From contig CP060755.1 of assembly GCA_023205875.1 (NCBI GenBank), positions 186,001 to 250,000 of the forward strand: 64,000 nt of DNA. The letters are read 5' to 3'. A model generated the notes under the pieces. That model saw only the letters and a program-made list of their open reading frames with translations, was not told the origin of the DNA and did not search any database. Below, piece by piece: positions 13,223-38,836 of the stretch (position 1 is its first letter; each line of letters begins with the position of its first letter). Made by a program: the position numbers and the translations under genes. This DNA comes from Chloropicon primus. Taxonomy: Eukaryota; Chlorophyta; Chloropicophyceae; Chloropicales; Chloropicaceae.

Positions 13223-13294
13223 GGCTCTGCCCCCTCTGTTCCCCCAGAGTCAAAGATCTGTTGGGGAGCGCGGGAGGAGAGACAGAGACTTGTG

Positions 13295-14423
13295 ATGATG
13301 ACGAAGGTGATGGCGAGAGGCTCGGGGCGGAGGAGGGGTGTGGAGTCTTCCTTGGGGTCGGCAGCCTCCACGGCGACCTCGACTTCCTCAGGATGGACCT
13401 CGAGGAGGGCGGCGCGACCGAGGTTGGAGTCTAAGGCACCCGAGGTGAGGATGAAGATCTCGGCTGTCAGTGGTGGTGGTGGTGGTGGCGAGAGGAAGGA
13501 GCAGAGCGTGGTGGAGCAGCTCATCTTTCTTAGAATAGATCCCGAGCAGGTGGAGCCCGAGGACGCGAGGGAGTGCGTGGAGAACATTTGGTCGCTCCAG
13601 TACCAGACCGCTGGAGTCGTTTGCTCCTCGGCAGGAGCGAGCCTCGAGGAGAAGATAGGAAGCGGGCTGCTGGGCTCTCCCAAGGGCCTCGGGTACTTCA
13701 CCCACGCTGTCCACTTTCGGTTTCCCGGCAGGGACCAGATGGACACGTTCGTCCAGTCGCCTGTGGTCCAAAAGGTAAGGGGGATCACGTGGTGCGTTGC
13801 GTTTTGGATTCTCAGATCACAAGAGCTGACAAGAGCTGGCAACTGCCGTTTTCGATACTGTTCAGGTTTTTGCCAAGGAGTTCACCTCGAGTTGCGCGGA
13901 CAGGGCCGCGCTGAGCTTCGTGTCGAGCATCCCAGAGGACCTCTTCGCCATCTTCAGGAAGGGCCAGGACTGGGACGAGGGCTTTGACCACCTCATGGTC
14001 ATTCGGTGCGACACCACAGGGGAAGCAACAGCCAGAGTTGCGGGCATGAGGAAGCAGGTGGAAGAGCATCAACCGAGGATGGAGGAATACGGAATCCAAC
14101 AGCTCACGTTCGGCGTAGCAATCGAAAATGAAAAGCAAATCGGTGAGTTCCCACGCCTTAAGTGAGAGTGGTGGTGCACCGCCACCACCACCACCACCAT
14201 GACCGACGCGAGTTTTTGAGTTTTTGTGTGCTGATCGACGCGCTCTTTCTCTTCTCTTCGGACGGACGAAACAGGGGTCCTCATGCGGTTCAGGAACGAG
14301 TATGATTTCGATTATTTTACAAAAAGCATTCTTTACGCAAACTTTATAGGAAGTAGCAGCGTAAATTCCATGTCCATAGTCACTTACGGAGTAGGAAGCC
14401 AGCAGGAATCGAGACATTTGTAA
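13295..14423 (+). CDS. Stress-responsive A/B-barrel (Dabb) domain protein
   Basis: Exons 13295..13774, 13866..14142 and 14275..14423; introns 91 and 132 bp; 301 aa. Residues about 72-150 form a Dabb domain like plant stress-responsive A/B-barrel proteins: VVEQLIFLRID opens the first strand and GYFTHAVHFRFPGRDQMDTF matches the family's FTHALHSRY-x-S-x-DL stretch. A second barrel half probably follows (HLMVIRCDTTGEATARVAGM), since these proteins often carry two. The first 60 residues are Arg/Ser-rich and may be a targeting peptide. ATG 13295 is adjacent to a second in-frame ATG at 13298. Bases 13262-13406, covering the start region, have been copied to 36494-36638. Confidence 0.78.
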
Positions 14424-17662: not shown

Positions 17663-18405
17663 TCTCCACTAGGTGGGACGCCAGTACTGTCCAAAAGATG
17701 AACACCCAAGCGCACCAAAACACAACAAACCTATATGTAGATAGACAAACTCACGGGGGCGTCACACACAGCAGCGGCTCTTGGTTCCAAGGCCACTCAT
17801 AAGATCCGTCCCTCCCCTTGTTTTCGTCCTCCCCCTTTTCTAAAGCCCACAACGCTCCCCTGTCGGTTCCTCTCTCTTGTTCCCTTCCCTCGCTGTCTCT
17901 GTCGACCCTCTCCCCTCTTCCCTCTCCTCTCTCTCGGCGAAGACAACGAACAACGAACACCAAGGAGGACAACACCGTCCCTCTGCTTGCGCCGAAACCA
18001 AAGCCACACCAAGCCACACCAAGCCCAAGTGTGTGTGTCTCTTCGTTTGTCCTTAACTGAATCCATCGATCCATCCATCGGGAAGGGAAAGCCAAAGGAG
18101 GAAACCCGAAGAGAGAGAGAGAGAGAGAGAGAGGAGAGGAGAGGATTCGAAAAAAAAGAGAAAGAGAAAGAGAATTGAATCAAGGGAAAGGAAAACTCTC
18201 CTCCTCTCTTCCTCCTCTCCTCTCTTCCCTTTACACCGAATCGATGACGTCCTGCCAACATGACCCGGTTCCCGCGTTTTTCGGTCCCTGGCTGGATCTT
18301 GGGAACAAGGACAAGGACGAGGACGGGAGCGAGGCACTCACTCCTTGACTCCTTGACTCTTTCAAGATACCTTTGGAGGGGCAGAGCGGGGCCAAGACGA
18401 CGAGC
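17663..18405. other. Divergent intergenic region, TOG protein / coiled-coil protein
   Basis: 743 bp with opposing starts at both ends. It contains (GA)-rich tracts at 18109-18150 and a TC-rich tract at 18190-18235. Several frames stay open because of these purine/pyrimidine runs but none shows family similarity. Confidence 0.45.
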
Positions 18406-20898
18406 ATGTCGTTAAGGGAGCCTTCGGTGAGGGTGGTGAGCGAAAGGAGAGGGAAAGGGGCGGGTCATGGGGTGGTCAGGCCCTTGTCAGCACCGGTGGT
18501 CGTCAGGGAAAACTTTGTCACGGAGGAGAGAGGGGACGGGGACGAAGGGGATCCAACGCCGTTGGCAAGAGGTGGCCAAGAGCTGACTGGGTCTTCCTCC
18601 CAACTCGGCAGGAAAGATGCCAGCTTGGCGGACAGCATGCTGGACACCGCGCGGGAGGCCCTGGGCAACCTTGAGGACCTGAAAAAGTGGGTGTACGACG
18701 ACTCAAGCAAGTCCTCCCTGTCCAACCGCGTCAGCGCTGCTACGAAGCAGAGGGCCTTGAGGAAGACGTTGCTCAAGATTGCAACGACCTGCCACTCGCT
18801 CAAGGAGCTGGAGCTGAAGTGCGAGAACAGCAAGACCCAGGAGGCCGAGCTGGAGCTGGAGCTGAAGCTGAAGGAAGAGTCGCGCTACGACACGCTCAAC
18901 ACGCTCAACGAGACGGCGGGGGAGCTGCAGAGGGCCGTGGATGACCTGAAGTCCCTGAGGGAAAAGCACGACGTTCTGGAGAGGGAGAACGTGATAAAGG
19001 AGAGGAAGCTGGAGGACCTCGAGGATCGCTCGAAGCAGACTCTGGAAGCCCTCAACAAGCTCGAGGAAGCCCACCAGAGGACCGAGGCGGAGAAGGGGGA
19101 GATCACGGACAGGTACAACAAGCTGGTGGAGACCGAGCGTAAGCTTCACCTCCCAGACCTTAGGAACGCGCTCTCGTCCGCCACGGCGAAGGTGGCCAAG
19201 TACGAGAAGTCGCTCGAGCAGAGCCAGAAGATCATCGCCCAAGTCACCGCGGACAACCTCGTCTTCCTGACCAAGTTCAAAGACGCGGAGGAGAAGTTTA
19301 GGGAAAGCGAGATGAGAAGGGAGGAGCTCCAGGTCATGGTCGACGAGCAGAAGGGCCCTTGGTTCGACAAGGTGAGGGGGGATATTCAACAGCAGGTTGA
19401 GAGCGACTGGCAAAAGATCCACAACCTTGAGAACGAGCTCTCCGCAGCAGAGCTCGAGTCGAAGAAAGAGATCAATCGACTGCAAGAGAAAGTGGAGGGC
19501 CTGAGCTCCGAGAACGAGGAGTTGCAAAAGGTCAAGGGCAGCATGGAGGAGAGGATCAAAAGCTTGAAGGAAAAGCTGAGGCAAAGGGAGGAGAAGGACA
19601 TCAAGGCTGCTACAGACTTTGAATCACTGAACCAGCTGCTCAAGGACAACTTGGCGGAGAACAAGGTATTGAGGGAGACGATTAACGACGAGCGGCACAC
19701 GATCGCAGATCTGACGCTCGAGTCCCAGGACCAGAAGCACGTGATCGAGCAGCTGAAGAGCGACCTGAAGTTCGACAGGGTCACCTTGCAGGAACTCAGG
19801 GTGAACTTGCAGAAAGAGAAGTGGGCCCTCGAGACTCAGAGGCGCATCAACAAGGAACTGATGAGCAGGAAGGAGGAGATGGAATGGAGGCTCATGGAGT
19901 TCCAAGTTGGGGGAGGGGAAGGGAAGAGTGCCGAGGACTCGAACGCTGACCTGGCTGCAATGAGGGAGGAGGCTGGGACAGGAGGCCGGCAGGAGAGTCA
20001 TTCCAGACCTTCTGCGAACTCTGCCGAGAAGCAGCCGGAGGCAGTGGCCCCTCGGAAAGACGACGCGGTCAAAAGCGACTTCTCGTACAAGGTTGTAGAG
20101 AAGGAAAAGAAGGTGGAGGAACAAGTCGTGGAGAGGAAATCCCCCGGTTTCCGCGAGGAGGTTTGCGAGCCCTCCGGGAAAGATGATACGCAGGAAGGCT
20201 CGGTACCTGCTGGCCTGACGGAATCCAACTTGAAACGCCACATACAGGGAGAGAAAGCCTCGAAAGCTTCGAAAGCTTCAAGTGAAGCGAGTGGCAAAGC
20301 CGCGAAGGGGGAAAGATTGACTATTGAGGAGCTCGAGGACAACATAGCAACCTCGAAAGACAAGCACGCGGAGCTGCTACAAGCATTCTTTCCTGCACAA
20401 AGTGAGAAGAGGATCGAAGAGAACCCTCTGCAAGTCCACCAGAGACTGGTCCAAAAGATAATTGGCGACGATACTTACGTCCCTGTGAGTCACAGCGTTC
20501 CTTCGGGCGAGATTTCTTCCGCGGATGCCACGATAGCGAGCATGCTCCGAGAGAGCATAACGGAAAACTCGAGCATAGGGGAACTTGAGGCCTCCATCGC
20601 GTTGGCCAAGAGCGAGTACAGCAAGATGATGGATAACTTCTCTAACCTCGTGGACAACTTGAAGAATGAGTCGGCCAGCCCTGGGCTGGAAACGATGCCC
20701 GTCCTGCCGGAAAGCATACAGAAAATGGCCGAGGAACAATTTGTGGAGCACTGGCAGATTGCGGACGGCAACCACTCCGAAACAAAGGAGTCGATCCAAG
20801 CCAGCGAGATCAAAGTCAGCGAGTGGCTGGACAATAAGATAAGCGAAGAGTGGAACAAGCAGTTCATGCCTGGATACCAGGAAGGGGACGAAAGTTAG
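18406..20898 (+). CDS. Long coiled-coil protein, function unknown
   Basis: Single exon, 830 aa from the ATG at 18406; upstream in-frame codons have no ATG. From about residue 110 to 525 it is almost unbroken coiled coil: heptads rich in Glu, Lys and Leu such as ELELELKLKEESRYDTLNTL and ELSAAELESKKEINRLQEKV. A Ser/Glu/Lys-rich linker follows, then two shorter repeats of similar type: TIEELEDNIATSKDKHAELL and SIGELEASIALAKSEYSKMM are related 20-residue units about 100 residues apart. No motor, FYVE or other named domain was recognised. It converges on the BSD gene 59 bp away. Bases from 19014 on have been copied nearly identically to 36627-38511. Confidence 0.82.
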   Translation: MSLREPSVRVVSERRGKGAGHGVVRPLSAPVVVRENFVTEERGDGDEGDPTPLARGGQELTGSSSQLGRKDASLADSMLDTAREALGNLEDLKKWVYDDSSKSSLSNRVSAATKQRALRKTLLKIATTCHSLKELELKCENSKTQEAELELELKLKEESRYDTLNTLNETAGELQRAVDDLKSLREKHDVLERENVIKERKLEDLEDRSKQTLEALNKLEEAHQRTEAEKGEITDRYNKLVETERKLHLPDLRNALSSATAKVAKYEKSLEQSQKIIAQVTADNLVFLTKFKDAEEKFRESEMRREELQVMVDEQKGPWFDKVRGDIQQQVESDWQKIHNLENELSAAELESKKEINRLQEKVEGLSSENEELQKVKGSMEERIKSLKEKLRQREEKDIKAATDFESLNQLLKDNLAENKVLRETINDERHTIADLTLESQDQKHVIEQLKSDLKFDRVTLQELRVNLQKEKWALETQRRINKELMSRKEEMEWRLMEFQVGGGEGKSAEDSNADLAAMREEAGTGGRQESHSRPSANSAEKQPEAVAPRKDDAVKSDFSYKVVEKEKKVEEQVVERKSPGFREEVCEPSGKDDTQEGSVPAGLTESNLKRHIQGEKASKASKASSEASGKAAKGERLTIEELEDNIATSKDKHAELLQAFFPAQSEKRIEENPLQVHQRLVQKIIGDDTYVPVSHSVPSGEISSADATIASMLRESITENSSIGELEASIALAKSEYSKMMDNFSNLVDNLKNESASPGLETMPVLPESIQKMAEEQFVEHWQIADGNHSETKESIQASEIKVSEWLDNKISEEWNKQFMPGYQEGDES

Positions 20899-20957
20899 CT
20901 TGGTGAAAACATTTTGTACAGCAGTCTAGGATTGAAAGATACAAATAACTTTTTTTT

Positions 20958-22174
20958 TCAGGTCGCATCCTCCACATCCTTCTCGTCCACTTTGACAATC
21001 TGGCTGTCATCAGAAATGCTCCCCAAGTCCTCCTCCAGCTCGTTAATGTAGTCGTCAAGGTTCTCGTCGTCGTCGTCGTCGTCGTTCACTCCGTCCCCTT
21101 CTTCGTCAGACATGTCCTTGTTCGCCAGGACGCTCTCTAGATAAGCCTCCAAATCATCCGACAAGTCATCTGCCACCTCCCCTTCGCTCCCCTCGCCGTC
21201 CGCACCCGGGTCTTCCACCTTGCTCTCCGAGGGAGCTTCCTCACCCAAGCTCATTCCTGAAACCTTTTCCGTGGCCCCCCTCAATGGATCCGCCCTCTCT
21301 TCCTCTCCCCCCGTCCTGCCGGTGTTGTCCTTGCCCCCGCCGCCCTCGAAAAGAAGTTTCTGGGAGAGGGCAAAGTAAATCTCCCAGAAGCGTTGCTCGC
21401 TCATCTTCTTTGGGGTGAGAAGGTACCTGCAGTCCCGGAGCTCCTTCGATACCTTGAGGATCTGGAGGACGTGGTTCTCTTGCCACGGCGTCAGCTTCCA
21501 GGACTCGTTGTCCTCCTTGGGCCACTCCTGGGACTTGGCGAGAAACATGTCAGAGGTGAGACCCTTCACGAAGGAAACCATCTCCTCAGTCACGCGATAT
21601 CGTTCCATCTCGCTCTTCTGGCTCTGCTCTTCCGAGGGGGGGCCTCCCATCTTCGCGGACAACAGAGCTGCAGGCCCAGAGAGAAAAACGAGGAGAGAAA
21701 AAGTCAGTTTATCCCTGTCCGGCCTCGGCACGAGTCCCACCTCTCACGCACCTGCAGAGTTAGCCGTGAGTTCGCGTAGCTGGCCTTGCGCCTCCTCCGC
21801 CGTCGCCTTCGCGTTGTTCGCCATGTCCTTGGCCACATCCTTCGCCCGAGAAAAGAGAGTGCTCAAGCTGTCGAGGCCTGGAGCAGGCCCAAGAAGACGA
21901 GGGGCAAAGTCAGTCAGTTCTGCAAAGCTGAGAAAAAGCGTCCGCCGCACTCACCTGTGGCTTTCGTCTCCCCGGAAGAATCAACGTCGGCCTTGGGGAC
22001 CTCGTTCCCGCTCGTCGAGCCCTCGTTCTCGGCACTCGTCGTCGCACTATTCACCACCCTGCGAAACTCCTCTTGTGTCTTCGCAGCGTGTGTCTTCGCT
22101 TGGGCCGCTGCCTGTGTCGCCGCTTCGGTCGCCTCTTTCGCCAAGGCGCTCACAGAGGAAAAGAACGACTGCAT
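20958..22174 (-). CDS. BSD-domain protein (plant SYNOBP/DOS2-like)
   Basis: Exons 22174..21955, 21877..21752 and 21667..20958; introns 77 and 84 bp; 351 aa. The BSD domain is in exon 3: LTPWQENHVLQILKVSKELR, then YLLTPKKMSEQRFWEIYFAL, with the family's conserved FW pair. Proteins of this layout have an Ala/Lys-rich amphipathic N-terminus (here KEATEAATQAAAQAKTHAAK and DVAKDMANNAKATAEEAQ), a BSD domain and an acidic tail. BSD domains occur in TFIIH subunits and synapse-associated proteins; the cellular job of this plant-like branch is poorly known. The tail is very acidic (VNDDDDDDENLDDYINELEE). The last 250 bases of the gene are present a second time at 38569-38811. Confidence 0.87.
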
Positions 22175-33649: not shown

Positions 33650-33849
33650 CCCTTCCTCCGCGCAACGCTCCCGCCCTGACTCCGACTAAGTTACTCTCTC
33701 TCTTGTCTTGTCCCTTCCTCCCTGCCCCCCCACCAACCCCACATCCGTGATGAGGTTTCCTTCTCCCTCCGAGGAGGCTCACCTCGTTCCTCCCACCCAA
33801 CCCACCCAATGACAGAGGGAAATGACCGACCTTGCTCCCTTCCTCGTCC

Positions 33850-33874
33850 TCCACCTGTCCTTCGAGATTTTGAA
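33850..33874. repeat. Left copy of a perfect 25-bp direct repeat
   Basis: Begins TCCACCTGTCC and ends ATTTTGAA; identical over 25 of 25 bases to 38812-38836, with mismatches immediately outside on both sides. The two copies bracket 33875-38811 exactly and look like a long target-site duplication or repair duplication. Confidence 0.9.
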
Positions 33875-34023
33875 CACAGATAAGTCACGAAAGGACGGTA
33901 AGAAAATCACAGTCAATACTGGAAGCACAAAGGCAAGTTCTCCTTTCCACTGAAAGAGAGAAACACGGAGAGAACGGAGACCGGCCACAACTTACCTGTT
34001 AGTTTTCTGCAAAGGTCGTTTCA

Positions 34024-34064
34024 CCGAGTTTGTAAGTTTCTCGGCAGGGTAATTCAGCCCTACC
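34024..34064 (-). ncRNA. Candidate guide-RNA (omega-RNA-like) hairpins 3' of the Fanzor gene
   Basis: Reading with the gene, about 85-125 nt after the stop, GGTAGGG pairs with CCCTGCC around an 8-nt loop (34064..34043), and CCGAG pairs with CTCGG around an 11-nt loop (34044..34024). The stems overlap by two bases, so they are alternatives or part of a pseudoknot. TnpB and Fanzor guide RNAs start inside or after the 3' end of the ORF and end at the element's right edge, so the location fits. No transcription evidence can be seen from sequence. Confidence 0.35.
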
Positions 34065-34148
34065 ACGACCATTCCACCGTACATGAACGAATACTTCCGC
34101 CCACGCACGGCAGCCCGTACTAACAAACGTATGTGCAACCCTGAGGAG

Positions 34149-36317
34149 TTACACACTTTTTGGTTGACGCAAGTGCTTCAGGAGGACGTTGCGTGCCCCG
34201 TTCACATCCCGACCGCACTTGAAGCCACACTTCTGGCACTTGTACACCTCTGCTCCACCCAGGTTGTCCTTGATGTGTCCGCACCTGCCACAGGTCTTGG
34301 AGGTGTACTCCTCCGTCACGATCGCCAGCTCACTGCCGTGCAAGAGCACCTTGGAAGCCAAGAACGTTCTGAACGCATAGTGCCTCAACGTCAAGAGCGT
34401 GCGAGCCGTCTTCTTCCTGATCACTCGGCGTCTCCCGTTGTTGTTCTTCTTCACCATGTCTTGGGACTTGAACTCCGGGAGGAGGATTGTGTCGAACCTC
34501 CTGCATAGATCGTTGGCTACCTTTTTGTGAAGCTCGTTCGTCAGACCTCGAATTTTCTCCATGCAGGCGTATTGCTGTCTCTTCAAGTCGCGGCGGTCGA
34601 GGTAAGGGAGCTTCACCTTTGGGTCTTTGCGCTCGGAAATGATCTCATCAATCCTCCAGCAGAGGTTGAACAGCCTCGCGAAGCCTCGCTCGCCCTTGGC
34701 ATACTCCCCGACGCCTTCTTGCGGCGAGTACGACGTCTGAAAGGTCCTGACTCCCGGATCCAGGGCGACAACCTTCCGCTTGTTCTCAGGCTTCAGGGGT
34801 GGCAGGCGATCCCATGGCGTCGCGATGGGAATGTGCATGTGGAACTGCCCAAGGCGATTTCTTGTGATCTTCACGGCACCCTCGATCTTGCCCCCGGGGA
34901 TCTCCTCCGTCAAGTACAGGGGCCCGCCGGCCATCTTCTTCTTGAACACCTCCAGCTTGGTCCACTTGCGTCGTTTCTTGTGCTTCGTATCATCCTTGTG
35001 CCTCGTGTTTGGCCTTTCGATCGTCTCCACGTTCTTTAACTCTCTTGCATCAATTTCAATAGTCCAAGAGCTCGGTTGCTGACGTTGACGATACTTGAGA
35101 ACGAAGCGGTGCCCCTTCTCCTCGCCGCGCTCCTTCATCGCTTCCTGCTTCGCGGTGTTCGAATCCCATGCCTTGATGAGACTTCGCACGGCAGCTTGTC
35201 TGATGGCACAGGGGGTTTCCTTCAGCCAAGGATGCTTCTGATTCACAAAGGCCCCGCTAACGTAGTCCCGGTCCTTGCCCACTTGGATGCGAAAAGCTCT
35301 GCCTCCAATTTGGCTCTCGAGTCTCTTCTCTCTGGCCGCGAAAAGCTCTGCCTCCTGTTTTGTCCATGGCCGTGGAGAGCATTGGATTTCTTTCAGCTCT
35401 TTCTCCAGGCCCTCAAAGACCTCAGGGCGTCGCGGTTTGGCCGTCACAAATCTGTCCAGCAGGACGGTCCAAACCAGCGGAAAACCCTCCTTCTTGACCG
35501 CCTCCAAACACTTGTTGTATGTGAAACGCGCAGCTCCCATCCAGTTGCAAAGTGTTCTCGCCTGCTCAGGGTTCAAGCGCATCCTAAGCTTCCTCGTCCG
35601 CATCACCGTTCGCTCCGACAATAGCTTGGAGGTCTTCAGTTTCTGCTCCCTCTTCCTTTTGGCGGGCGACTGCAATGTCTCGACGGATACCACAGAATCT
35701 TCTGGAAGGTTCAAGCACGACCTCCATCCCGTCTTCGGACACTTTACCTCTACAAGTTCTCTCTTGATCGATGAGAACCAGGTCTTCTTCACGCTGTCGT
35801 CCGCCAAGCCACCCGGCTGCTTCCCTGCTTTCTTCCCCCTCTTGTTCTTCTTCTTCTTACCCTTCTTCTTGTTCTTCTTCTTGCCCTTCTTGCGAGGCTT
35901 CTTGCGAGGCTTGCCTGACGAGCTCGAACTCTCACCCGCAGAGGCGTCCGCCTCCGGCGGACGCCCCTTCCGCTTCCCCCCCCGCTTCTTGCGAGGCGTG
36001 CTCGAACCCTCCTCGAAAGCAGAGGCGGGGTCGTCCAGCGGCTTCCCCTTCCGCTTCCCCCCCCGCTTCTTGCGAGGCGTGCTCGAACCCTCACCCGCAG
36101 AGGCGGGGTCGTCCGCGATAGGAAGCAGGCACAACGCGTAGAGCCAGGCTAAACCCTGATTCCAGAACCGACGTAACGGCTCCGTCGTCGGAGACTCCTG
36201 CCCCGACTTCGAAGCGCCCTGAGCATGACTCTCGCCAGAGTGCGACCTCCTTGTGGAACTCGTCGAGCCACTCCCCTGCTTCTCCTTTTTCTTACGGCGC
36301 TTCCCTGATCGCGCCAT
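34149..36317 (-). CDS. Fanzor / TnpB-type RNA-guided endonuclease
   Basis: Single exon, 722 aa from ATG 36317. From about residue 235 it follows TnpB: a LRMRLNPEQARTLCNWMGAA start, then RFTYNKCLEAV, then WED/REC-like regions and a RuvC nuclease. Catalytic residues appear complete: Asp520 in VVALDPGVRTFQ, Glu615 in ILLPEFKSQDM and Asp704 in CGRDVNGARNVLL. Between the last two is the zinc ribbon, CGRCGH and CQKCGFKCG. The N-terminal 230 residues are an added, Lys/Arg/Ser-rich tail with repeated PRKKRGGKRKG nuclear-localisation-like units, absent from bacterial TnpB but common in eukaryotic Fanzors. Family members cut DNA specified by an RNA encoded next to the gene. No partner recombinase is seen. 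The ORF has no internal stop or frameshift. Confidence 0.92.
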   Translation of the reverse strand: MARSGKRRKKKEKQGSGSTSSTRRSHSGESHAQGASKSGQESPTTEPLRRFWNQGLAWLYALCLLPIADDPASAGEGSSTPRKKRGGKRKGKPLDDPASAFEEGSSTPRKKRGGKRKGRPPEADASAGESSSSSGKPRKKPRKKGKKKNKKKGKKKKNKRGKKAGKQPGGLADDSVKKTWFSSIKRELVEVKCPKTGWRSCLNLPEDSVVSVETLQSPAKRKREQKLKTSKLLSERTVMRTRKLRMRLNPEQARTLCNWMGAARFTYNKCLEAVKKEGFPLVWTVLLDRFVTAKPRRPEVFEGLEKELKEIQCSPRPWTKQEAELFAAREKRLESQIGGRAFRIQVGKDRDYVSGAFVNQKHPWLKETPCAIRQAAVRSLIKAWDSNTAKQEAMKERGEEKGHRFVLKYRQRQQPSSWTIEIDARELKNVETIERPNTRHKDDTKHKKRRKWTKLEVFKKKMAGGPLYLTEEIPGGKIEGAVKITRNRLGQFHMHIPIATPWDRLPPLKPENKRKVVALDPGVRTFQTSYSPQEGVGEYAKGERGFARLFNLCWRIDEIISERKDPKVKLPYLDRRDLKRQQYACMEKIRGLTNELHKKVANDLCRRFDTILLPEFKSQDMVKKNNNGRRRVIRKKTARTLLTLRHYAFRTFLASKVLLHGSELAIVTEEYTSKTCGRCGHIKDNLGGAEVYKCQKCGFKCGRDVNGARNVLLKHLRQPKSV
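35960..36115 (-). repeat. Tandem repeat in the Fanzor N-terminal tail
   Basis: Two near-identical copies of about 80 bp encode DDPASA followed by EGSSTPRKKRGGKRKG. A third, more diverged unit follows (EADASAGESSSS). The repeats add basic nuclear-localisation-like clusters while keeping frame. Confidence 0.85.
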
Positions 36318-36492
36318 GACTGTTAGCTGCTACTGCAAGGGTTTCACTCGCTGCCCTCCTCGTAACTCCTCGTAACTATAGATTTGCCTTGTCCAGCAAG
36401 TGAGAACACGAAAAAACGCTTAGTGGGTTGTCCTTTGGGTGTGACCAAACTGGTATACACTGGAATCCCACCAACAGGGGAAAACCTCCAAC

Positions 36493-37710
36493 ATGGGGAG
36501 CGCGGGAGGAGAGACAGAGACTTGTGATGATGACGAAGGTGATGGCGAGAGGCTCGGGGCGGAGGAGGGGTGTGGAGTCTTCCTTGGGGTCGGCAGCCTC
36601 CACGGCGACCTCGACTTCCTCAGGATGGACCTCGAGGATCGCTCGAAGCAGACTCTGGAAGCCCTCAACAAGCTCGAGGAAGCCCACCAGAGGACCGAGG
36701 CGGAGAAGGGGGAGATCACGGACAGGTACAACAAGCTGGTGGAGACCGAGCGTAAGCTTCACCTCCCAGACCTTAGGAACGCGCTCTCGTCCGCCACGGC
36801 GAAGGTGGCCAAGTACGAGAAGTCGCTCGAGCAGAGCCAGAAGATCATCGCCCAAGTCACCGCGGACAACCTCGTCTTCCTGACCAAGTTCAAAGACGCG
36901 GAGGAGAAGTTTAGGGAAAGCGAGATGAGAAGGGAGGAGCTCCAGGTCATGGTCGACGAGCAGAAGGGCCCTTGGTTCGACAAGGTGAGGGGGGATATTC
37001 AACAGCAGGTTGAGAGCGACTGGCAAAAGATCCACAACCTTGAGAACGAGCTCTCCGCAGCAGAGCTCGAGTCGAAGAAAGAGATCAATCGACTGCAAGA
37101 GAAAGTGGAGGGCCTGAGCTCCGAGAACGAGGAGTTGCAAAAGGTCAAGGGCAGCATGGAGGAGAGGATCAAAAGCTTGAAGGAAAAGCTGAGGCAAAGG
37201 GAGGAGAAGGACATCAAGGCTGCTACAGACTTTGAATCACTGAACCAGCTGCTCAAGGACAACTTGGCGGAGAACAAGGTATTGAGGGAGACGATTAACG
37301 ACGAGCGGCACACGATCGCAGATCTGACGCTCGAGTCCCAGGACCAGAAGCACGTGATCGAGCAGCTGAAGAGCGACCTGAAGTTCGACAGGGTCACCTT
37401 GCAGGAACTCAGGGTGAACTTGCAGAAAGAGAAGTGGGCCCTCGAGACTCAGAGGCGCATCAACAAGGAACTGATGAGCAGGAAGGAGGAGATGGAATGG
37501 AGGCTCATGGAGTTCCAAGTTGGGGGAGGGGAAGGGAAGAGTGCCGAGGACTCGAACGCTGACCTGGCTGCAATGAGGGAGGAGGCTGGGACAGGAGGCC
37601 GGCAGGAGAGTCATTCCAGACCTTCTGCGAACTCTGCCGAGAAGCAGCCGGAGGCAGTGGCCCTCGGAAAGACGACGCGGTCAAAAGCGACTTCTCGTAC
37701 AAGGTTGTAG
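36493..37710 (+). CDS. Chimeric ORF: 45 new residues fused to a coiled-coil segment
   Basis: 405 codons. The ATG is formed at the junction at 36493. Residues 1-45 come from the copied A/B-barrel start region read in a frame not used there (acidic start, GETETCDDDEGDGERLG). Residues 46 onward are the coiled-coil protein from its DLEDRSKQTLEALNKLEE on, in its proper frame. A one-base loss in a C run at 37661-37663 relative to the parent changes the last 17 residues and ends the ORF at VALGKTTRSKATSRTRL. Whether it is expressed is unknown. The coiled-coil part lacks the parent's first 206 residues. Confidence 0.55.
   Translation: MGSAGGETETCDDDEGDGERLGAEEGCGVFLGVGSLHGDLDFLRMDLEDRSKQTLEALNKLEEAHQRTEAEKGEITDRYNKLVETERKLHLPDLRNALSSATAKVAKYEKSLEQSQKIIAQVTADNLVFLTKFKDAEEKFRESEMRREELQVMVDEQKGPWFDKVRGDIQQQVESDWQKIHNLENELSAAELESKKEINRLQEKVEGLSSENEELQKVKGSMEERIKSLKEKLRQREEKDIKAATDFESLNQLLKDNLAENKVLRETINDERHTIADLTLESQDQKHVIEQLKSDLKFDRVTLQELRVNLQKEKWALETQRRINKELMSRKEEMEWRLMEFQVGGGEGKSAEDSNADLAAMREEAGTGGRQESHSRPSANSAEKQPEAVALGKTTRSKATSRTRL
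36494..36638 (+). repeat. Copy of the A/B-barrel gene's start region (13262-13406)
   Basis: 145 bp identical by eye to 13262-13406. The right end joins the next copied piece inside a 12-bp sequence (GGACCTCGAGGA) present in both sources. The left end joins unassigned DNA, and the join turns TTG into ATG. It carries 33 bp of 5' leader and 112 bp of coding sequence, read here in another frame. Confidence 0.93.
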
Positions 37711-38509
37711 AGAAGGAAAAGAAGGTGGAGGAACAAGTCGTGGAGAGGAAATCCCCGGTTTCCGCGAGGAGGTTTGCGAGCCCTCCGGGAAAGATGATAC
37801 GCAGGAAGGCTCGGTACCTGCTGGCCTGACGGAATCCAACTTGAAACGCCACATACAGGGAGAGAAAGCCTCGAAAGCTTCGAAAGCTTCAAGTGAAGCG
37901 AGTGGCAAAGCCGCGAAGGGGGAAAGATTGACTATTGAGGAGCTCGAGGACAACATAGCAACCTCGAAAGACAAGCACGCAGAGCTGCTACAAGCATTCT
38001 TTCCTGCACAAAGTGAGAAGAGGATCGAAGAGAACCCTCTGCAAGTCCACCAGAGACTGGTCCAAAAGATAATTGGCGACGATACTTACGTCCCTGTGAG
38101 TCACAGCGTTCCTTCGGGCGAGATTTCTTCCGCGGATGCCACGATAGCGAGCATGCTCCGAGAGAGCATAACGGAAAACTCGAGCATAGGGGAACTTGAG
38201 GCCTCCATCGCGTTGGCCAAGAGCGAGTACAGCAAGATGATGGATAACTTCTCTAACCTCGTGGACAACTTGAAGAATGAGTCGGCCAGCCCTGGGCTGG
38301 AAACGATGCCCGTCCTGCCGGAAAGCATACAGAAAATGGCCGAGGAACAATTTGTGGAGCACTGGCAGATTGCGGACGGCAACCACTCCGAAACAAAGGA
38401 GTCGATCCAAGCCAGCGAGATCAAAGTCAGCGAGTGGCTGGACAATAAGATAAGCGAAGAGTGGAACAAGCAGTTCATGCCTGGATACCAGGAAGGGGAC
38501 GAAAGTTAG
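36627..38509 (+). pseudogene. Near-identical partial copy of the coiled-coil gene
   Basis: Copy of 19014-20898. Compared by eye, it differs by one missing C at 37661-37663, one missing C at about 37753-37756 and one G-to-A change at 37981 (silent). The two single-base losses shift the frame, so the parent's C-terminal domain is now in another frame (readable from 37841 to 38509 without its own linkage). Such high identity implies a very recent copy. Both losses are in C runs, so base-call errors remain possible. Confidence 0.9.
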
Positions 38510-38568
38510 CTTGGTGAAAACATTTTGTACAGCAGTCTAGGATTGAAAGATACAAATAACTTTTTTTT

Positions 38569-38811
38569 TCAGGTCGCATCCTCCACATCCTTCTCGTCCA
38601 CTTTGACAATCTGGCTGTCATCAGAAATGCTCCCCAAGTCCTCCTCCAGCTCGTTAATGTAGTCGTCAAGGTTCTCGTCGTCGTCGTCGTCGTCGTTCAC
38701 TCCGTCCCCTTCTTCGTCAGACATGTCCTTGTTCGCCAGGACGCTCTCTAGATAAGCCTCCAAATCATCCGACAAGTCATCTGCCACCTCCCCTTCGCTC
38801 TCGCACCCGGG
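38569..38811 (-). pseudogene. 3' fragment of the BSD gene (copy of 20958-about 21211)
   Basis: Encodes the acidic tail of the BSD protein with stop codon and no BSD domain. It matches the parent by eye until about 38799, where roughly 10 bp are missing (after CCTTCGCTC), then continues GCACCCGGGTC to the edge of the right 25-bp repeat. No start or promoter of its own. Confidence 0.9.
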
Positions 38812-38836
38812 TCCACCTGTCCTTCGAGATTTTGAA
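38812..38836. repeat. Right copy of the 25-bp direct repeat
   Basis: Identical to 33850-33874. It begins directly where the copied BSD fragment ends and lies 87 bp before the ATG of the next gene. Confidence 0.9.

Follow-up and report, generated by a model that had tools for sequence, protein, structure and literature searches.

What does an intact gene for an RNA-guided nuclease do in a eukaryotic chromosome, and where is the RNA that would direct it encoded? The question arises from a stretch of 64,000 nucleotides of the tiny marine green alga Chloropicon primus (assembly GCA_023205875.1, contig CP060755.1, positions 186,001 to 250,000; hereafter the window), in which an earlier note, made from the bare sequence, had read an intact Fanzor gene. 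The reading frame in question runs unbroken through 722 codons from 36317 to 34149 on the reverse strand, lies within a transposon present in 30 close copies, and encodes a protein of the TnpB/Fanzor2 fold. Behind its stop codon, a conserved segment predicted to fold as RNA is followed by a short region that differs in nearly every copy. The explanation that accounts best for the whole, held with less than even confidence, is a Fanzor2 transposon with an internal guide, by which the nuclease would cut the transposon's own copies.

A family of closely similar transposons

The genome of C. primus RCC138 (17,584,162 bases in 20 contigs; the window lies on contig C2) holds at least 43 places matched by the TNB profile, of which 34 were read; 30 of these make up the family of the window copy, the other nine of the 43 being weaker fragments. 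Besides the 30 family copies, the sequences compared included three short relatives (L041-L043), a solitary right part (L044) and four copies of a second Fanzor family. Mean pairwise identity is 97.9% over 29 aligned copies, the alignment omitting L025.

Complete elements are about 2.65 kb long, start with TGTTGGAGG and end in ATAACA or ACAACA. They are TG..CA-ended, with short and degenerate terminal inverted repeats (TIRs; TGTT..AACA). The 5' end is intact in 28 copies, the three short relatives included, and 22 of these 28 have a complete 3' end. A target-site duplication (TSD) of 5-6 bp flanks 18 of the 22 two-ended copies, a set that includes two short relatives. In a copy of 2646 bp (L010), the open reading frame (ORF) of the Fanzor spans 166-2337 and leaves no room for a recombinase; the remaining space is too small for a serine recombinase, although no hidden Markov model scan was aimed at one. 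With TIRs, TSDs and no IS607 serine recombinase, the family has the features of Fanzor2*. Because the Fanzor is the only long ORF, the element is presumably mobilised in trans, by an enzyme that would generate the 5-bp duplications.

The ORF is open from its usual start to its usual stop in 20 of the 30 copies; the ten broken frames and the single-base indels are possibly in part assembly errors in repeats. The earlier note had taken the unbroken frame, lying beside a very recent rearrangement, as a sign of recent activity or recent arrival. Since the window copy is one of 30 close copies, and the family has already been reported for the species, recent arrival is not shown, and recent amplification is the better reading. 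Arrival from a virus was considered and rejected: the 28 viral relatives are only 24-40% identical in their best segments, and there is no recent source among them.

The trinucleotide CAG occurs within 9 nt to the left of the element in 18 of 28 copies, where 1.8 are expected, and ACAG in 13. The distance from CAG to the boundary varies between 0 and 4 nt across the 28 copies. As a clean target-adjacent motif (TAM), CAG was dropped, being enriched but in no fixed register.

A conserved folded segment behind the stop codon

Directly after the stop codon, at 33996..34148 on the reverse strand, lies a 153-nt segment that ends in CTAACAG. Judged by its folding and conservation, it is likely to be the scaffold of a right-end RNA (reRNA, or omegaRNA). 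In L010 it folds with -58.6 kcal/mol (z -4.30), none of 200 dinucleotide shuffles being as stable, and the same energy is obtained for the window copy. No excess folding is seen in the terminal 110 nt (z +0.75, or +0.40 when 25 nt of flank are included), and nucleotide diversity (pi) is about five times higher in the right part (0.0219) than in the 153-nt stretch (0.0042). Both results argue against a guide located in the flanking DNA, the ordinary arrangement that is weighed below. The low diversity of the scaffold is partly regional, since four-fold sites in the adjacent end of the ORF also vary little: successive thirds of the ORF give 0.0172, 0.0434 and 0.0086 at such sites, and the 440 bases before its end give 0.0119.

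A 7-nt complement between positions -130..-124 and -8..-2 could form a pseudoknot, and an IS607 reRNA has one that is similarly placed (U-130/A-3; available text of PMC10711439). An Rfam search of 33700-36700 with E values up to 5 returned five matches, none of which reached the gathering score. The claim that an RNA is encoded beside the gene has the support of folding, but the guide may lie within the element and not in the flank.

Hypervariable scars and mosaic copies

The scaffold is followed by 15-16 near-constant nucleotides, GTAAGTnnGnGGCCGG, which have five alleles among the 30 copies and are 15 nt long in 28 of them. In the window this stretch, the predicted seed of a guide, reads GTAAGTTGTGGCCGG and occupies 33981..33995 on the reverse strand. 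Beyond it, positions +16..+46 from the scaffold end (33950..33980, reverse strand) form a hypervariable segment with 28 versions in 30 copies. The left border GGCCGG is retained in all 30; counted from there, 15 distinct versions have appeared by the fifth base, 21 by the sixth and 28 by the 19th. The 40-bp interval that covers the segment has 28 haplotypes among the 29 aligned copies, whereas the 261 intervals compared have a median of 3 and a 95th percentile of 12. The gap runs are concentrated in the same manner, with 21 distinct runs beginning in one 20-column bin, five in the next-highest and none in the median bin. This pattern of private scars is real and strong.

Each scar can be decomposed into the fixed border, a filler and a right side. 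The filler is usually 3-7 nt long (0 in L040, 1 in L013 and 17 in L033), and the right side starts in or past a (CCGTGTTTCTCT)n tract, with 18 different starts in 29 decomposed copies; the pattern used for splitting did not match L034, and a single substitution caused L038 to be split wrongly. Filler and right start are common to two pairs, L011/L018 and L010/window copy (L021), the latter with different seeds, while the closest pair, L019 and L031 (99.6% identical), has different scars. The near-constant 15-mer is found with 0-1 mismatch at 28 places, all of them Fanzor copies, and with two mismatches at 10 further places, compared with 29 for a reversed control pattern.

The repeat tract suggests a conventional origin, which we regard as a serious if doubtful possibility. 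The element would be an ordinary Fanzor2* with its guide in the flank, and the scar would lie in a tiny intron of the 3' untranslated region, where a pyrimidine-rich minisatellite mutates fast by slippage and end joining, the nuclease being unrelated. The possible GT..AG intron takes in the seed and the hypervariable segment (33950..33995, reverse strand); it has GTAAG at its left and AG at its right in 30 copies, contains the 12-bp units CCGTGTTTCTCT 0 to about three times, and includes pairs that are one unit apart. Introns of C. primus have a mean length of 152 bp and occur in 37% of genes (available text of PMC12301720), and the accessible part of Yoon et al. (2023; PMC10711439) predicts TIR and TSD within Fanzor2* scaffolds, which places the guide in the flank. 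Slippage, however, leaves unexplained the non-repeat fillers and the deletions that run past the repeat (L015, L023, L031, L033 and L039), as well as the fixed left border, and the introns of L015 and L023 would be only 24 bases long. The variable right end described above, which shows no excess folding, also disagrees with a scaffold in that position.

Alternatively, the variable joint could stem from many separate fusions, each copy having been assembled on its own from a Fanzor cassette and the right half of a short relative. The right part, shortened in the window copy (33875..33949, reverse strand), is common to short non-autonomous relatives; in L041-L043 it is joined to other left parts, and in L044 it stands by itself. 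Such an origin is very improbable, because it requires more than 20 fusions at nearly one base of the left part, and the three short relatives that retain the stretch show one indel-free junction. In L041, L042 and the relative nested in L025, none of which has the scaffold, the right part has no indels and a few single-nucleotide differences; L043 is without the stretch.

The copies are, in addition, mosaic, sequence having been exchanged among siblings. At 102 informative sites, 22 of the 227 pairs less than 20 bp apart are incompatible, as are 1495 of the 1818 pairs separated by more than 1 kb. The minimum number of recombination events (Rm) is 36, and changes to 34 without the scar region, to 28 without two further indel-rich regions, and to 29 with gap-free columns.

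Abortive gap repair would link the mosaics with the scars. After every transposition the donor site would be refilled from a sibling by synthesis starting at both ends, the two being joined where they meet, at a pyrimidine tract that blocks the polymerase, and the scars would record repair and not cutting. This accounts for mosaic copies, private joints, and intact outer ends and TSDs, and it agrees with a role in donor-site retention that has been proposed for TnpB. Nevertheless, it appears improbable: joints of this kind are expected to be scattered, whereas the 21 gap runs share one 20-column bin (five in the next), and the left border is constant to within a few bases.

Possible self-targeting by an internal guide

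Taken as a scaffold, the 153-nt RNA places the guide inside the transposon, and its targets become the transposon's own copies. The guide would begin at GTAAGTnnGnGGCCGG, within the element instead of in flanking DNA; on the sequence, the case for this start is evenly balanced. A nuclease loaded with such a guide would cut sibling copies, or its own gene, about 15-21 nt beyond the scaffold end. End joining would then leave a private scar, and repair templated by a sibling would shuffle blocks between copies. If the scaffold reading holds, cutting by the Fanzor is the simplest single cause of scars and mosaics. That self-cutting, end joining and sibling repair did produce both is a proposal that we put forward tentatively, as somewhat short of probable.

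The cut sites of four Fanzors are given in the available part of PMC10432273. For SpuFz1 the cuts follow bases 16-17 and 20-21, and for GtFz1 bases 14-17; NlovFz2 makes a blunt cut behind base 19, and MmeFz2 cuts the two strands differently, behind bases 17-18 and behind bases 9-14. The scar starts 15-16 nt past the scaffold, with its near side fixed and its far side variably lost; the stagger of SpuFz1 fits best, and the sites of both SpuFz1 and NlovFz2 lie within the interval observed. A guide located in exon 2 after splicing was also considered and rejected: were cutting to take place behind the genomic CAG, it should have left a second variable site about 16-21 nt into TGGAAAGG, and the alignment has none comparable at that point.

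Several points weigh against self-cutting with an internal guide. SpuFz1, the best fit to the cut site, is a Fanzor1, whereas the family described here is Fanzor2*, and the Fanzor2s measured, NlovFz2 and MmeFz2, differ from the SpuFz1 stagger in the text available (PMC10432273). The scaffold prediction of Yoon et al. cited above puts the guide in the flank. The stretch GTAAGT..TTTCAG resembles a spliceosomal intron and may be one, its 5' splice site falling exactly at the scaffold end. The solitary right part L044 carries three repeat units, and a single 12-bp unit separates L009 from L010 and L026 from L032, as in slippage. A complement of at least 6 nt arises in 25% of shuffles, so that the pseudoknot is only suggestive and the 7-nt complement alone not significant. 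In eight of the 28 viral relatives, in which folding behind the stop codon was tried, the mean z is -0.3 and none lies below -2. The idea of a TAM is weak, as CAG lies at varying distance from the boundary; its enrichment may reflect either an insertion-site preference or a TAM. Finally, the ratio of nonsynonymous to synonymous polymorphism (pN/pS) among the 20 open ORFs is 0.88 in the N-terminal 230 residues and 0.58 in the core, the latter indicating, with no significance test, weak purifying selection at best.

Relation to known systems

The transposon itself has been described. In the available text of Yoon et al. (2023; PMC10711439), the Fanzor2* of the same species is a cut-and-paste transposon with degenerate TIRs and TSDs; that text mentions neither a guide inside the element nor mosaicism or private scars among the copies. 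The accessible part of Lemieux 2019 (PMC6731263) reports for C. primus CCMP1205 an IS605-like family of 25 dispersed members, among the largest gene families, and names it transposase-like only, making no reference to RNA guidance. In view of these two reports, the finding as given in the earlier note was already known. In the four Fanzors mentioned above, SpuFz1, GtFz1, NlovFz2 and MmeFz2, RNA-guided cutting takes place at a distance of 9-21 nt from a short TAM on the 5' side; the guide is the 3' flank of the omegaRNA, and no self-cutting is reported in the portion available (PMC10432273). A case comparable by description is Auxenochlorella, another green alga with a compact diploid genome, in which an uncharacterised element encoding a Fanzor is the most abundant repeat (available text of PMC12633428).

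Fanzor identity is therefore known, whereas the conserved folded 153-nt RNA and the scar pattern are new as far as our literature search shows, the openly licensed literature searched having yielded no account of such scars or of an reRNA that targets itself. Possibly, though with considerable doubt, the RNA is a natural self-targeting guide that has near-perfect targets nowhere but in its own gene and the siblings, which would make the family a barcode and an engine of recombination among copies. Engineered homing guide RNAs target themselves, accumulate private end-joining scars and serve as lineage barcodes. Those are man-made Cas9 systems, whereas the one in C. primus would be natural and based on a Fanzor. 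If the Fanzor makes the cut, the scars would document, in a genome, that Fanzors cut DNA in nature, and would show that a guide may be encoded within the element and directed at itself. In a small, mostly diploid alga with two sequenced strains, cutting, end joining and sibling copying would be traceable directly.

Protein fold and active site

Proteins almost identical to the one in the window carry the name 'putative IS605 transposase [Chloropicon primus]'. A domain-profile search of the 722-residue protein detected a TNB zinc-ribbon domain and an OrfB-type helix-turn-helix, and the score against the TnpB-family NCBIfam model is slightly below the cut-off. Of the solved structures, mimivirus Fanzor2/L79 (PDB 9b0l) matches the sequence best, with an E value of 9.3e-20 over residues 505-715. 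A structure model built from 12 aligned proteins is modest (mean predicted local distance difference test score, pLDDT, of 61.5). According to Foldseek it resembles Fanzor2 and TnpB structures, 9b0l being the best, with an identity of 16-20% over the fold; the WED-REC-RuvC-TNB arrangement is recovered at the level of the overall fold, its domains not being dissected. The profile search and structure prediction proposed in the earlier note thus agree, and with 722 codons free of stops they bear out that this chromosome of a green alga carries a Fanzor gene. By membership of this family, its reading as an RNA-guided nuclease appears sound. Two protein searches, each scoring the roughly 7,990 candidates with the most words in common with the query, gave nothing intermediate between the proteins of C. 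primus (90-100% identical) and P0006 (59%).

Two members of the proposed RuvC triad are confirmed and the third is replaced. Asp520 of RuvC-I, in a DPG motif (codon at 34758..34760, reverse strand), and Asp704 of RuvC-III (34206..34208, reverse strand) are invariant in the 12 aligned proteins. Glu615 was rejected as a catalytic residue, its column being glutamate in only four of the 12, and the canonical RuvC-II glutamate column is occupied here by P614. The alternative RuvC-II glutamate, E669 (34311..34313, reverse strand), fits instead. It is glutamate in ten of the 12, and the two proteins that lack it are bacterial-type TnpBs carrying the canonical glutamate. E669 precedes C676 by seven residues, and C679 completes the motif E-x6-C-x2-C. 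The zinc ribbon is confirmed as well, with its four cysteines unchanged across all 12 proteins. Mimivirus L79, which belongs to an IS607-type element, has its alternative glutamate at the same position in the sequence alignment. The motif D520-P521-G522 and the alternative glutamate, with the canonical one absent, constitute the published fingerprint of Fanzor as opposed to TnpB, and the motif spacings of 146, 6, 14 and 6 agree with the pattern given in the available text, its first range being taken as 120-160 (PMC10711439). Overall, the Fanzor identity read from the sequence stands, whereas Glu615 does not and recent arrival is not shown.

The basic N-terminal tail of 230 residues had been described as added. 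Its Lys-rich, low-complexity stretch is present, but it lies between two blocks, at about residues 48-66 and 177-225, that are common to relatives, the first being less clean in a second alignment. As judged from these alignments, the tail is partly ancestral and not simply an addition.

The copy in the window

The window copy (33875..36493, reverse strand) has its 5' terminus, TGTTGGAGG, intact at 36493, and its 3' end is lost after CTGTGT at about 33875. It lacks the last ~34 bp and the 5-bp target duplication and is not a complete element, while retaining the ORF, scaffold and scar. Given these losses, it is probably immobile, even with the ORF and the RNA scaffold preserved. In L021, L023 and L041, the 3' end is lost at nearly one place (CTTATCTGT), with a T-to-A variant just before it, which suggests that they form a lineage whose right end has been shortened. 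In L025 and L033, an alternative 5' leader (GATCGGTTGAGTTTGTCGCGAGGGACGAGG) replaces the usual one.

The copy forms part of a composite insertion of 4.9 kb, which has a 25-bp direct repeat on either side (33850..33874 on the left, 38812..38836 on the right). Adjoining its 5' end on the forward strand are host segment A (36494..36638), a 145-bp copy of 13262-13406 with 100% identity, and host segment B (36627..38800), a copy of ~2.18 kb from about 19011-21189 with 99.8% identity; the two are joined across 12 shared bases. The site at 13.26 kb is now uninterrupted. The exact 5' end at the junction with segment A suggests that the element once resided there, and the element, its flank and segment B would have been copied together into the present location by template switching. 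The window copy thus probably arrived within a templated multi-segment insertion. No sign of RNA-mediated transposition was seen for the window insertion, segment B being collinear over ~2.2 kb.

A chimeric ORF of 405 codons (36493-37710, forward strand) begins with an ATG created at the junction between the transposon and segment A. About 44 residues derive from segment A and lead in frame into a coiled-coil-like protein copied from 18349-20898, whose frame is ended by a 1-bp deletion.

Short relatives and a second Fanzor family

The short relatives, L041-L043 and a further one nested in L025, are non-autonomous elements of 350-639 bp that share the left end of the family but differ from it in the middle. 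The right end is complete in L042 and L043, and the interiors of L041 and L042 have GTAAGT..TTTCAG-like borders of their own. The solitary right part L044 (about 821-964; C1:71.4 kb) begins near the hypervariable joint and is joined to unrelated DNA.

A second, divergent Fanzor family, possibly Fanzor1-like, comprises four copies: L029:3784-5832 and L030:4131-6197, both on contig C5, L045 on C13 and L046 on C2. The ORFs of L029 and L030 encode 682 and 688 residues, respectively, and DPG and E-x6-C are present. The four copies split into two groups by their 3' flanks.

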